DNA of 54,532 nucleotides, taken from positions 1 to 54,532 of the forward strand of contig JAGQQG010000036.1 of the NCBI GenBank assembly GCA_020426325.1. Reading direction: 5' to 3'. Positions 13,445 to 17,556 of the stretch are shown here, piece after piece. This stretch comes from Planctomycetaceae bacterium. GTDB lineage: Bacteria > Planctomycetota > Planctomycetia > Planctomycetales > Planctomycetaceae. The position numbers and the translations under genes are program-made. How positions within the stretch are numbered: position 1 is the first letter of the stretch; each line of letters opens with the position of its first letter. The notes beneath the pieces are model-generated. The model made no database searches and had not been told where the DNA came from. It saw only the letters and a program-made list of their open reading frames with translations.

Positions 13445-13654
13445 ATGCGACAACCAATCATACGACACGGCGGAAAACATTATCTTGCGGAGCGAATTGT
13501 TGTGTTGATGCCCCCGCGATCCAAAAACTCCAATGCTCCGGCTCCAGACGATCCCGGCTGTGTACACTATGTCGAGCCGTTCTTCGGCGACGGCTCTGTC
13601 CTGTTCGCGATGGCCCCTGAGGATATCTCGGAAGTCGTCAACGATCTTGACGGT
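13445..13654 (+). pseudogene. D12-class DNA adenine methyltransferase, N-terminal fragment
   Basis: An ATG at 13445 follows a GGAG ribosome site at 6 nt. About 70 residues match the start of Dam-like (MethyltransfD12) N6-adenine methyltransferases: GGKHYLAERIV, then HYVEPFFGDGSVLFA (the SAM-binding FxGxG-type motif) and VVNDLDG. The match stops abruptly at about 13654, where IS66 sequence takes over in another frame; the methylase frame ends at a stop at 13667-13669. The catalytic DPPY motif and the rest are missing, so this is a broken gene. Confidence 0.75.
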
Positions 13655-13853
13655 GAATCGTCGTGCTGATCGCGTGAAGCTGTTGTACTGGGACCGCGAC
13701 GGGGTGTGCATCTGGTTCAAGCGGCTAGAAGCCGGCACGTTTCGCTTTCCGGCGTCCCAAGAGGGACAGACGAGCATCACCATCTCCGCCGCGGAGTCGG
13801 CCATGCTGCTGGATGGCGTGCATCTGGCCAGTGTGCGTCGACGGAAGCGTTAG
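13653..13853 (+). pseudogene. IS66 accessory protein TnpB, C-terminal fragment
   Basis: From about 13653 the frame reads VNRRADRVKLLYWDRDG, then a W-F-K-R-L-E-A-G-T-F segment, and finally SAMLLDGVHL-x-SVRRRKR before a TAG. This is the characteristic C-terminal half of IS66-family TnpB (Orf2). The N-terminal half and the large TnpC transposase are absent. The fragment abuts the methylase fragment with no gap. Confidence 0.8.
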
Positions 13854-14007: not shown

Positions 14008-14418
14008 TCAGAACGACTCACCAATTAACAGCGGCATTCGTTCGCTGCGGGTCATCACCCGGTAGTAGTGCGACGCGGGCTGCGTGATTGGATAAACCTG
14101 ATTCTGCACAATCACTCCCCGGATACCTTCCTTGACCTGATACCAGATTCCTCGGTCCACACAATACGTTGCTGGAATGTCCGCTTGCTTCGGCCTGCGT
14201 TCGGACCATGCCCTTGATTCCAGTTCCTCAAGTGGACACCACCCAGCCCATGGCATGATGACCAACCGTCCGTGATGCCAGACCGGGAGCACTCGGGGAC
14301 GCTGCCGGTAGAGGAACTGCACTTCCGGTTCACCGTCCCCACGATGCGTGACACGGTTCGATAACCGGTCAACCAGCTCGTCCGGCACTTCACATCTGGC
14401 TAAGGCAATGCCCATCAT
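14008..14418 (-). CDS. Small protein of unknown function coupled to the Y-family polymerase
   Basis: 136 residues from the ATG at 14418, which overlaps the polymerase stop in a TGATG arrangement; a GTG at 14427 is an alternative start. I recognise no family. It is not UmuD-like: there is no Ser-Lys autoprotease pattern. Visible features are VLPVWHHGRLVIMPWAGW and a later Y-Q-V-KEGIRGVIV segment, suggesting a small beta-rich fold. Tight coupling to the polymerase implies a shared role in the DNA damage response, perhaps as a partner or regulator; this is inference. Confidence 0.75.
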   Translation of the reverse strand: MMGIALARCEVPDELVDRLSNRVTHRGDGEPEVQFLYRQRPRVLPVWHHGRLVIMPWAGWCPLEELESRAWSERRPKQADIPATYCVDRGIWYQVKEGIRGVIVQNQVYPITQPASHYYRVMTRSERMPLLIGESF

Positions 14419-15578
14419 CAGAAACACGACTTCCCGTACACATCGCAGATATCGTAGCCGTAGGCTTCGTCCCCGTAGATATCGTTGATAGCCAGTGTCT
14501 CGGCACTGCGAACCGTGAACCGTCCCAACTTCTCATTCACGGTTCGCTTCAGTTCGTCCAGTTCCGGTTTGACCGGCTCAAACAGCGATCGTTGTTGACT
14601 CCCGATCACTTGTAACTCGTCAGCGACAATGTGCATGTGAGTGACCGGCTGACCTCGCCAGCCGATGACGAACAATTCCTTGGCAGCCGGTAACAACATC
14701 TCGCTGGCTCCCGTGGATGAAATCAGAGCCGTCTGACCGGACCACCCACCGGTCTTGAACGACAACCAGAGAGACAGCTTCCGTGTCACGTACCGATGCC
14801 AGAACATGGCCTCAACCAGTCGTTCCACGTTGCGGGCCACCCAACCCATGAGCCGGTCCCGGTCATCAGTCGTTCGTCCTACGCTCCCGCCACGGGCAAT
14901 CCGCTTGTGCATCGGTCGACTAATGGTGATCGGAGTGATGGGCGTCCCGTTCAATTCCCACCACAGGCCCTCACCCACTTTCGTCAGCAGTCGATTGACC
15001 AGTTGCCTGTCAGCCTGTCGAAAGTCGCCCACAGTCCGAATGTCATGGGCAGACAGCTTGATGGAACTCCGCAGCGCGATCCCGGTGATTTCCGTGACGG
15101 GGAGTTCATCAAAGTCACCCACGGCTGAGACCGAACACCCGAACGGCTTGCGGGCATCGGATGCCAGCTTGGCGAGTGTCCGGGATGCCGCAACACCAAT
15201 GCTGACCGGGACACCGACGCGGGTCAGGATGGTCTTCTGCATGGACCACGGATCAACGCCGGTCGCATCGAAGAACATCTCATCAATCGAGTAGTATTCA
15301 ACAGTCGGGCTGAACTCCCGCACGACGTCCAGCATGGACCGGGACAGCACTTCGTACCATCGGAAGTCCCGCTTGACGTACACGCCATGCGGACACACCT
15401 TGACCGCTTCCCAGATGGGTTGCCCGGTCTTCACACCGGCAGCCTTCATTTCGTAGGACTTCGCAATGACACACGCCCCTTGATTCCCCAGAACCCCGAC
15501 CGGGATTCCGCGCAGAGACGGGTAGCGAACCCGCTCGGCGGAAGCGTAAAAACAGTCTGCATCGACGTGTCCGATCAT
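14418..15578 (-). CDS. Y-family (UmuC/DinB-like) translesion DNA polymerase
   Basis: 386 residues. The palm motifs of Y-family polymerases are complete: D6 in HVDADCFYASAE and D99-E100 in YYSIDEMFFD, the metal-binding carboxylates. VSIGVAASRTLAKLAS lies in the following helix and a helix-hairpin-helix thumb follows. Q329-R-S-L-F333 resembles the sliding-clamp binding peptide (QxxLF). The C-terminus ends YDICDVYGKSCF. It would copy damaged DNA templates. The ATG at 15578 is 13 bp from the GAAC-N4-GTTC palindrome, so repression by a LexA-type protein is likely. It is first in a two-gene minus-strand unit and divergent from the SRAP gene. Confidence 0.92.
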   Translation of the reverse strand: MIGHVDADCFYASAERVRYPSLRGIPVGVLGNQGACVIAKSYEMKAAGVKTGQPIWEAVKVCPHGVYVKRDFRWYEVLSRSMLDVVREFSPTVEYYSIDEMFFDATGVDPWSMQKTILTRVGVPVSIGVAASRTLAKLASDARKPFGCSVSAVGDFDELPVTEITGIALRSSIKLSAHDIRTVGDFRQADRQLVNRLLTKVGEGLWWELNGTPITPITISRPMHKRIARGGSVGRTTDDRDRLMGWVARNVERLVEAMFWHRYVTRKLSLWLSFKTGGWSGQTALISSTGASEMLLPAAKELFVIGWRGQPVTHMHIVADELQVIGSQQRSLFEPVKPELDELKRTVNEKLGRFTVRSAETLAINDIYGDEAYGYDICDVYGKSCF

Positions 15579-15591
15579 GGCCGGACTTTAC

Positions 15592-15605
15592 TGAACATGT
15601 GTTCA
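15592..15605. promoter_or_regulatory. Candidate LexA/SOS operator (TGAACATGTGTTCA)
   Basis: A 14-bp palindrome with perfect 6-bp arms (TGAACA and TGTTCA, two-base centre). It contains GAAC-N4-GTTC, the core of the Bacillus-type LexA (DinR) box. It sits in the 43-bp gap between two divergent DNA-damage genes, where one bound repressor dimer would block both. The matching LexA gene is not in the window. Confidence 0.7.
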
Positions 15606-15621
15606 CAAGTACAGTGCAAAA

Positions 15622-16239
15622 ATGTGCCACCGATATCGAGCTGAATTGCGGGCAAGCCAGCTTGCCGAACTGCTCAAAATAGAGCTGTCGAGACTCGACA
15701 GCTTGCCGGACGGAGACCTTTACCCGACGTACGACGTCCCTGTCGTTCGGCTGACCGACGATGGCCGGGAACTGGTTGCGATGTCATGGGGCTTGCTGCC
15801 GTTCTGGTGGAAGCCGGGAAAGGGAGCCAGGTCAACTTTCCAACGCAAGACATTCAACGCCCGGTGTGAGACGATCCACGAGAAGCCCACGTTCCGGACC
15901 GCGTTCAAAACCCGTCGATGCGTCATCCCTGCAAGCGAGTTCTACGAAGGTCCGACAGGCCATGCTGCCTATTTCCGATTGAAGGATTCCACGGTGATGT
16001 CCTTCGCGGGCTTGTGGGAGTCATGCAGCATCGAAGGCGAGACGGTCGAATCATGCACGATCGTCACGACGTCTGCGAACTCACTCGTGGCCGATTATCA
16101 TCCCCGCAAGCGGATGCCTGTTATTCTGGACAGCGATGGTGTGCAACGTTGGCTTGATCCCGACGTGATCGAGAGACCAGCATTAGAATATCTGTTTGAA
16201 CCCTTCGATTCGTCGTTGATGGAATATCTTGGTGTGTGA
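15622..16239 (+). CDS. yedK: SRAP-domain protein (YedK/HMCES family), abasic-site shield
   Basis: 205 residues with the family's usual length and catalytic set. C2 directly follows the initiator Met and would be exposed by Met removal. N79 lies in FNARCET, E106 in PASEFYEG and H160 before PRKRMP. In known members Cys2 forms a thiazolidine crosslink with abasic sites in single-stranded DNA, protecting them during replication. Strict need for Cys at position 2 fixes the start at 15622. The gene is divergent from the polymerase and shares the GAAC-N4-GTTC palindrome, which lies 16 bp upstream. Confidence 0.93.
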   Translation: MCHRYRAELRASQLAELLKIELSRLDSLPDGDLYPTYDVPVVRLTDDGRELVAMSWGLLPFWWKPGKGARSTFQRKTFNARCETIHEKPTFRTAFKTRRCVIPASEFYEGPTGHAAYFRLKDSTVMSFAGLWESCSIEGETVESCTIVTTSANSLVADYHPRKRMPVILDSDGVQRWLDPDVIERPALEYLFEPFDSSLMEYLGV

Positions 16240-16355: not shown

Positions 16356-16787
16356 ATGCAAGTTCACTGTCCAGATTGTTCGACACGCTACCGGGTGGAT
16401 GATGAACACGGCGGACGCTGGAGAGATTGCTCCAAATGCGGGGCAAAGTTCATGCTGCCAATTCCGGTCGCCTCCTGCTTACCTGAATGGGCCTTAAGTG
16501 CACCGTGGCCGAAGTTGCTTCGATTCGTCAACAACAGCGGTGCCCGTGGTCATAGTCCGGGAACCATTAATGAATTCACTCGCATCATCGAACAGAGACG
16601 CTGGGAGGAGGAAGCACGCGTCCGATATCGGGCAGCGACTTCTGAGGGGCGTCCTGTGCTGTCTCAGCGTGAACGGATCTGGGAGGTCTCTGAAAGCCGG
16701 CTTCGGAGACGTCACAAGCTGGAAGAACTGCAAAGGCTTTGTCCGCACGAATTCGAGCGGTTGAATGCCGACCTGTTTAGGATGTAG
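16356..16787 (+). CDS. Small zinc-ribbon protein of unknown function
   Basis: 143 residues. The N-terminus has a CPDC...CSKC zinc ribbon (residues 5-8 and 25-28) of the MJ0042 type, with the usual YRVDDEHGG spacer. The rest is charged and rich in Arg and Glu, with a probable helical region (about 75-140). There is no membrane segment and no catalytic motif. The ribosome site is weak. It lies between the SRAP gene and a decayed transposase; a link to the SOS cassette cannot be shown. Confidence 0.65.
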   Translation: MQVHCPDCSTRYRVDDEHGGRWRDCSKCGAKFMLPIPVASCLPEWALSAPWPKLLRFVNNSGARGHSPGTINEFTRIIEQRRWEEEARVRYRAATSEGRPVLSQRERIWEVSESRLRRRHKLEELQRLCPHEFERLNADLFRM

Positions 16788-17048
16788 GGATATCTGGCCA
16801 ATGCCGTTGGCGGGACGTCAGACGATAGAATCGACATTGAAATTCGACAGAGCAGTAGTGAACTGTGTGGCGTTGCTCGGTGCAAACGCTACTCGAATGG
16901 AACGTGCGCTTCCGCCGGAGATGTTCGGGACTTTACAGCGGCTTTCATGTTGAGCAAGGCTCCACACGGCTTGTCGAGCAGCGATGCGAGCGAGTCCACC
17001 CGGTCTCCCGCACATTTGTGTATAAGCGTGCAAGATCATATTAACTGC

Positions 17049-17556
17049 TCGCGGGGTGGGTTGGTGACGTTCTATGTGCTGAACTCAATGCGGTTGAAGT
17101 CGCGGGAGAATGTGGCGGCGGGGGTGACGGCCAGTCCAGATGCGGCTTGGGGCCGGCAGATGGCTTGGAACCTGACGTGTGACGAGGATGGCTTTCTGAT
17201 TGGGACGACGCATCTGATTCTGGATCGGGACACGAAGTTTGTGCCGCTGAGGCGGTATCTGCAGGAGCACACAGTGGTGAATCCGGTGTTGTTACCGCCT
17301 CTGTCGCCCGATTTGAATGCTCATCTGGAGAGGCAATTCAGAAGCATGAAGTCCGAGTGTCTGGGCCGGATTGATCTTCTTCAGTGAACGTGCATTGCGG
17401 CAGTGGGGCGCTCACTACCATGCGGAGCGAAATCATCAGGAGCTTTGCAGTCAGTTAATCGTAATGCAAGATGAGGGGGTGAATTCAGCAGGTGAGGTCA
17501 AACTCAGCGAACGGCTGGGTGGTCTGCTGCGGTACTACCACCGACGTGCAGCCTGA
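17049..17556 (+). pseudogene. Decayed transposase with rve (integrase) core
   Basis: The first frame (to about 17387) gives GGLVTFYVL, then NLTCDEDGFLIG, LILDRDTKF and LLPPLSPDLNAHLERQFRS-KSECL. This is the integrase-core D-D-E region of a transposase type common in planctomycetes. The match then jumps to a second frame (from about 17371: FFSERALR, HYHAERNHQ, ERLGGLLRYYHRRAA) that ends at 17556. The N-terminal DNA-binding part is missing and the central part is frameshifted, so the gene is dead. Confidence 0.8.

Follow-up and report, generated by a model that had tools for sequence, protein, structure and literature searches.

A Planctomycetaceae bacterium (GenBank assembly GCA_020426325.1) encodes, on contig JAGQQG010000036.1, a Y-family DNA polymerase with a small coupled partner, back to back with a gene for a full-size SRAP protein of the YedK/HMCES kind, and the question raised by this locus is whether the three genes form one DNA damage unit under a single control site. 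The window, that is, the whole stretch of 54,532 nucleotides that was analysed, is contig 295 of a 424-contig genome. The reading we favor, with a probability of about 0.7, is that the cassette is an SOS-inducible translesion unit under one shared LexA-type switch. A first-pass annotation of the window had described the polymerase and its coupled gene as divergent from the SRAP gene across a gap of 43 bp, with a perfect-arm GAAC-N4-GTTC palindrome in the gap and both coding starts within 24 bp of the operator center, and this description holds in its coordinates and Pfam families (Table 1). The gap is 15579-15621, and the palindrome, TGAACATGTGTTCA, is the sole GAACN4GTTC within the window. 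Its arms are perfect and its inner N4 (ATGT) is itself asymmetric; the start codons on either side stand 20.5 and 23.5 bp away from its center at 15598.5. With 173 places for GAACN4GTTC in the 6.85-Mb genome, the chance of meeting one in a 43-bp gap is about 8 × 10−4, and for TGWACN4GTWCA, with 11 places, it is about 5 × 10−5. On the polymerase side, the open reading frame (ORF) of the partner overlaps the polymerase stop, with a probable start at the ATG at 14416-14418 (MMGI...).

The Bacillus-type LexA box, GAAC-N4-GTTC, forms the core of the window site. A bona fide LexA is encoded by the host, as the first-pass annotation supposed: a single full-length copy of 200 aa with helix-turn-helix (HTH) and S24 domains, scoring 213 bits to the NCBIfam lexA equivalog (cut-off 111). 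LexA is detected in 118 of 118 sampled genomes of the class. To follow the site itself, 96 polymerase loci gave 95 usable upstreams and 60 non-redundant ones, each represented by its best match within 120 bp. TGWAC-N4-GTWCA at 9-10 of 10 positions is present in 29/60, a count that leans upward because the motif had been spotted by eye in those upstreams before being counted there, against 1.1% of 3000 dinucleotide shuffles and 0/60 control segments inside polymerase genes. The palindrome is thus conserved ahead of orthologous polymerases, in a wider form than the Bacillus-type box, since the orthologous planctomycete sites also have GTAC and GTTC-type arms. The counts at recA and SRAP genes are free of the motif-first bias: 10 of 29 recA upstreams (300 bp) score 9, versus 1.5% of shuffles, and 6 of the 29 upstreams of the best-scoring SRAPs (200 bp) score 9-10, versus 1.0%. 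In the host, AGTACACCTGTACA lies 30-50 bp before the probable ATG of recA and counts 9/10 by hand (the scripted count scanned a region further upstream, where the best score is 7), and a second Y-polymerase is preceded by TGTATATTTGTACA, also 9/10. By resemblance, then, the operator type is common to recA and other SOS genes. According to PMC3108266, the E. coli motif is not the one that LexA uses in planctomycetes.

Where would transcription start relative to the operator? Each of the 29 upstreams scoring 9-10 was searched for its best −35/−10 pair, with the −10 allowed 8-20 bp after the site start and with the start codon ignored. Among these orthologues, 25 have an in-frame start by the rule used and 4 do not; the gap from the end of the −10 to the first such start is 6-9 nt in 22/25 and 34-47 nt in the remaining 3. 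The operator fills the spacer, as in TTGACA-N16-TATAAT of L011 and TTGACA-N17-TACACT of L015, two of these loci. A −10 at 6-9 nt from the start codon would have the transcript begin at or beside that codon, and the polymerase mRNA is probably leaderless. What was proposed at first pass as very short leaders is thus probably the absence of any leader. In the window, the two putative promoters overlap symmetrically, with each −10 overlapping the opposite −35.

The window is one case of an arrangement met elsewhere. In other planctomycetes, 8 of the 30 best-scoring SRAP loci have the SRAP gene head-to-head with imuA, and the gaps hold a site of at least 8/10 in 8/8 cases and of 9 or 10 in 6/8. 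The imuA of one of these (L210) matches NCBIfam ImuA at E = 6.4 × 10−33, below the curated cut-off. Because all 8 SRAP/imuA gaps hold the site, a SRAP gene back to back with a translesion module on one site is a recurring design. Next to the polymerase, SRAP stands head-to-head in the window and in L039, L051, and L203 (0.6 kb off in the last), with other arrangements in the rest of the loci where the two occur together. In L039, the head-to-head SRAP (L039:3735-3947) is interrupted after about 71 residues by transposase-like sequence, with the polymerase and partner frames open.

Table 1. Features of the cassette, its control region, and its flanks (window coordinates)
Feature	Position	Strand	Basis
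Y-family (UmuC/DinB-like) polymerase, 386 aa	14418..15578	-	Pfam IMS E = 1.1 × 10−36, IMS_C E = 4.3 × 10−8
Small partner ORF, mini-SRAP relative, translationally coupled	14008..14427	-	AlphaFold2, Foldseek, profile match
Full-size SRAP (YedK/HMCES-like, MCHRY subtype)	15622..16239	+	Pfam SRAP E = 1.4 × 10−48
Palindromic operator TGAACATGTGTTCA, LexA-type	15592..15605		Conserved upstream of orthologues
Putative polymerase −35, TGTACT, 3/6	15608..15613	-	Promoter-pair search; weak, missed by scan tool
Putative polymerase −10, TAAAGT, 4/6	15585..15590	-	Spacer 17, ends 6 nt before ATG
Putative SRAP −35, TTTACT, 4/6	15587..15592	+	By eye; missed by scan tool
Putative SRAP −10, TACAGT, 4/6	15610..15615	+	By eye; spacer 17, ends 6 nt before ATG
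TnpB_IS66 C-terminal fragment	in 13533-13853		Pfam E = 1.8 × 10−18
D12-methylase fragment, weak	in 13550-13666		E = 0.0019, below Pfam cut-off
DDE_3/rve_3 fragment, weak	in 16947-17387		E = 0.0095 and 0.019, below cut-off

The polymerase has the DxD and SIDE motifs, a RecA-NT-like stretch judged by eye, and a conserved C-terminal tail, YDICDVYGKSCF, and it is apparently active. Its closest named relative, at 74% identity, is that of the Planctomycetaceae metagenome-assembled genome at locus L039. The polymerase is detected in 90 of 297 genomes of the class, and the partner lies within the fetched stretch of 93/96 polymerase loci, some of which repeat a genome: in 83 it follows downstream on the polymerase strand, at most about 0.4 kb away, in 9 it is divergent, in 1 it is 2.7 kb away, and 3 have none. 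Searched the other way, 14/14 partner-matching genomes (of 392) carry the polymerase, and among the listed genomes with no partner match, 0/20 belong to the 90 polymerase-bearing ones (358 others fall outside that listing). Judging from these matches, the pair is widespread in the class. A regular expression for the tail matches 88 of the 93 partner-bearing loci, and the other 5 have a near-variant tail; 3 tail-bearing loci have no partner in the fetched stretch. The co-occurrence of tail and partner may partly be phylogeny, because 54 distant relatives have neither. Three of the polymerase-partner loci (L060-L062) belong to Candidatus Peregrinibacteria, and there the pair follows another palindrome, GGTGAG-N6-CTCACC, which in 2/3 comes directly after TTGAC.

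The small partner has no match to any Pfam, NCBIfam, or PHROG family. UmuD and YolD were considered and dropped, as no such family matched. The 38 partner homologues align end to end and most start with MCxGI; a Pfam SRAP search matches 1/38 at E = 0.066, short of what the curated model asks. AlphaFold2 models are confident, with a predicted local distance difference test (pLDDT) score of 95.3 for the window partner and 94.0 for the L042 member. Foldseek against the Protein Data Bank (PDB) places SRAPs in the top 4 of 195 matches to the window partner (2f20 A, 2bdv, YedK 6kbz, and 2f20 B; probability 0.89-0.99, E = 0.048-0.15) and in the top 3 of 144 for the L042 partner (HMCES 6oeb and 6oea, and 2f20; probability 1.00, E = 1.6 × 10−3 to 2.5 × 10−3), with 2f20 and 2bdv confirmed as SRAP relatives. 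The leading matches assign the partner to the SRAP fold, yet all have E above 0.001, and superposition is loose, with query template modeling (TM) scores of 0.47-0.60 and a root-mean-square deviation of 6-10. By profile comparison, hhalign scores the partner at 33.9 (probability 52.6) against 26 SRAPs, versus 11.8-21.5 for 10 column shuffles and 11.2 for a reversed profile. A forced global alignment matches MC to MC, WG to WG, and RMPV to RMPV. An alignment to 5 SRAPs (probability 22.8) sets the partner IPA..D/E opposite the SRAP IPA.FYE, that is, the catalytic Glu, an uncertain match because the global alignment does not pair it. On this evidence, we take the partner for a distant SRAP relative of reduced length. 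Against PDB sequences, the partner profile matches only beta-lactamase-inhibitor repeats (42 residues, E = 3 × 10−5); as a repeat match at odds with the folds that Foldseek gives, this is judged to be chance. A fold search of BFVD gives a best E of 0.062, to a marine-virus protein.

The full-size SRAP belongs to the superfamily at 165.7 Pfam bits (cut-off 27.1) and has Cys2, Asn79, Glu109, and His160, residues that are invariant across 26 SRAPs; it shares this Cys2, Asn, Glu, and His set with YedK/HMCES and differs as an MCHRY subtype. Relative to the window SRAP, the small partner falls about 70 residues short, and here it has no Cys2. Among partner-bearing genomes, Cys2 is kept in 55/66 and absent in 11, including that of the window. 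Sections of PMC9436759 report that Glu105 is the most important residue of YedK besides Cys2, that the effect of E105D is modest, and that His160 changes cost about ten-fold. By analogy with these YedK data, Cys2-bearing partners could be active, and the window partner should not form the Cys2 cross-link. Two other genomes (G108 and G008; loci L286, L287, and L288) have extra divergent mini-SRAP copies scoring 43-62 bits, two with Cys2 (MCDAV and MCDAI) and one starting MSDSI, with no Y-polymerase within the approximately 3.4 kb fetched.

Several observations weigh against the shared LexA switch, in addition to the order in which the motif was noticed and counted. The host lexA upstream has no TGWAC-N4-GTWCA site (best 7/10), so that autoregulation of lexA through the same site was not found, and lexA upstreams (200 bp) are weakly enriched, 3/24 scoring 9 versus 1.8% of shuffles. 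Genome-wide, TGWACN4GTWCA occurs 11 times versus 8 for the reversed control, near background, and by eye only the window site and one other of the 11 are intergenic. A stricter host pattern, after TTGAC, finds 7 places, none by eye a clear repair promoter. Polymerase upstreams of the Gimesia type (L017, L018, L026, and L185) score 7 only. The window promoters are weak, with 7/12 (polymerase) and 8/12 (SRAP) consensus matches, and a stricter promoter scan tool lists none for the gap. SRAP itself is within the fetched stretch of just 10/96 polymerase loci. The strict GAACN4GTTC was also tried as the host regulon motif, and its 173 places versus 82 for the reversed control are uninformative (the first 50 were examined). 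The first-pass proposal of an SOS cassette with a shared operator is supported computationally by a conserved LexA-type site and a host LexA, with a wider motif and a lexA that lacks it; related sites stand at host recA and the second Y-polymerase, and not at lexA. Could the operator then be real and shared, and its repressor some HTH protein other than the host LexA? The missing site at lexA would fit, as would a second LexA-type HTH protein of the host in which an S24 domain was not found, but the site type is enriched at recA and present between SRAP and imuA, classical LexA targets, and LexA occurs throughout the class sample, so we consider this distinctly unlikely. That the operator serves the polymerase-partner operon alone, with SRAP a chance neighbor under its own or constitutive expression, would agree with the scarcity of SRAP at these loci, with operators kept at polymerases that have no adjoining SRAP, and with a weak SRAP promoter that was read by eye and missed by the scan tool. 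Against it, the gap is very short, the SRAP side mirrors the polymerase side in its 17-bp spacer and its 6 nt from −10 to ATG, L039 retains the same head-to-head order, and the SRAP/imuA gaps repeat the design. We regard this explanation as very unlikely.

The two remaining alternatives concern the history of the genes. Arrival by transfer, which the first-pass annotation had suggested from decayed mobile elements on both sides, would have a mobile cassette bring its control site along. The IS66, D12-methylase, and DDE fragments on the two flanks are real, but two of the three are weak and below cut-off. The sole same-genus genome sampled (G219) has no polymerase match at E = 1 × 10−40, an absence that fits gain or loss. 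Opposing transfer, the G+C of the cassette (57.2%) equals that of the window (56.8%), the polymerase and partner occur together widely across the class, and the partner was absent from the plasmids searched and gave one unconfirmed pattern match in viral contigs. Transfer is therefore not supported, and we hold it to be unlikely. As for the partner, it might be a decaying remnant that has lost Cys2 and ceded its task to the full SRAP: it starts MMGI where most partners have Cys2, and its nearest relatives, in L039, L010, and L011, likewise lack that residue. Its ORF, however, is intact and aligns end to end, the invariant columns of the family are kept, and the predicted fold is confident. Nor is Cys2 loss associated with a full SRAP in the genome, which was tried as an explanation and rejected: 7/11 Cys-less genomes have SRAP versus 31/55 Cys2-bearing ones (p = 0.54, for the counts 8/12 versus 30/54 before L031 was reassigned). 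Decay we consider highly improbable.

Some observations touch these subjects from the side. The other apparently intergenic TGWACN4GTWCA place in the host, TGAACATCGGTTCA at G000:C133:30339-30352 (L158:1501-1514), precedes by about 230 bp an ORF that, by eye, begins like an ATP-cone ribonucleotide reductase and may be a further SOS gene. In Gimesia-type upstreams (L017-L019, L021, and L023-L026), the place of TGWAC-N4-GTWCA is taken by a conserved palindrome resembling ACTGTTCAGT, some 50 bp upstream, and nine Gimesia genomes have two LexA-like genes each, as would fit a change of site after LexA duplication. The second LexA-type HTH protein of the host (G000:C61; L006:1471-2034) adjoins, by eye, type I restriction helicase-like and metallopeptidase-like genes. 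The window also encodes a small zinc-ribbon (MJ0042-type) protein at 16356-16787, past the SRAP gene and ahead of the transposase fragment.

How much of this is already known? According to parts of PMC6511836, Y-polymerases with the RecA-NT motif, tail, and small partners are established, and SRAP (DUF159) genes beside umuC, dinB, or imuA-imuB-dnaE2 are described in parts of PMC3765255; both there and here SRAP stands beside SOS mutagenic polymerases, and in the present cassette the polymerase switch is common to two SRAP-fold genes, one miniature and one full. In PMC12926913 (Nucleic Acids Research, February 2026), SRAP-like proteins are specifically tied to UmuC-like polymerases in a putative module and are proposed to be PolY-binding regulatory small subunits. 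That is the same kind of pairing, likened by description, although the module text gives no lineage, promoter, operator, Cys2 status, or divergent full SRAP. The same text has the YqjW tail making no contact with its partner in AlphaFold models, a point against taking the tail here as the docking site. A RecA-NT-like stretch and a conserved C-terminal tail also mark the Y-polymerases of the E. coli UmuDC (Pol V), Bacillus YqjW-YqjX, and UvrX-YolD systems, each co-transcribed with a small partner under LexA-type control; in the cassette here, that partner resembles SRAP and not UmuD or YolD. SRAP/polymerase and PolY/SRAP-like links are already published, so the pairing itself represents no new kind. 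Among the matches listed by a literature search with subscription papers outside its scope, the cassette and a planctomycete LexA site are not described beyond the cited papers, nor were the operator, the leaderless geometry, the Cys2 history, or the divergent double-SRAP arrangement found in print. The parts belong to known kinds, and the compact arrangement and its control site look like a new variant.

In the reading that we favor, the shared LexA-type switch would work as follows. In the undamaged cell, a LexA dimer would occupy TGAACATGTGTTCA in the −35/−10 spacer of the two overlapping outward promoters and block both. After damage, LexA would be cleaved, and RNA polymerase could load in either direction, never in both at once. 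A leftward leaderless mRNA would give the Y-polymerase and its coupled mini-SRAP partner, and a rightward leaderless mRNA the full SRAP. The polymerase would bypass lesions with the partner bound as a UmuD/YolD-like small subunit, and the full SRAP would covalently cap abasic sites in single-stranded DNA.

A more specific proposal, which is tentative and rather doubtful, is that in most pair-bearing planctomycetes a Cys2 mini-SRAP could trap the lesion covalently at the polymerase, whereas in the window clade the partner has lost Cys2 and is a structural subunit, and a full SRAP is expressed from the same leaderless, LexA-gated, mutually exclusive promoters. If so, a mini-SRAP with Cys2 and the acidic catalytic residue would couple protection and bypass in one complex, and in the window clade one site would decide between capping and bypass. 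PMC9436759 describes SRAP proteins, of which HMCES is the human one, as guarding abasic sites and keeping mutagenic bypass in check. For planctomycetes, the analysis supplies a candidate LexA site, and the geometry around it suggests leaderless transcripts for these genes. With a mini-SRAP companion and a full SRAP on one switch, the choice between capping and bypass at a single control point becomes testable.

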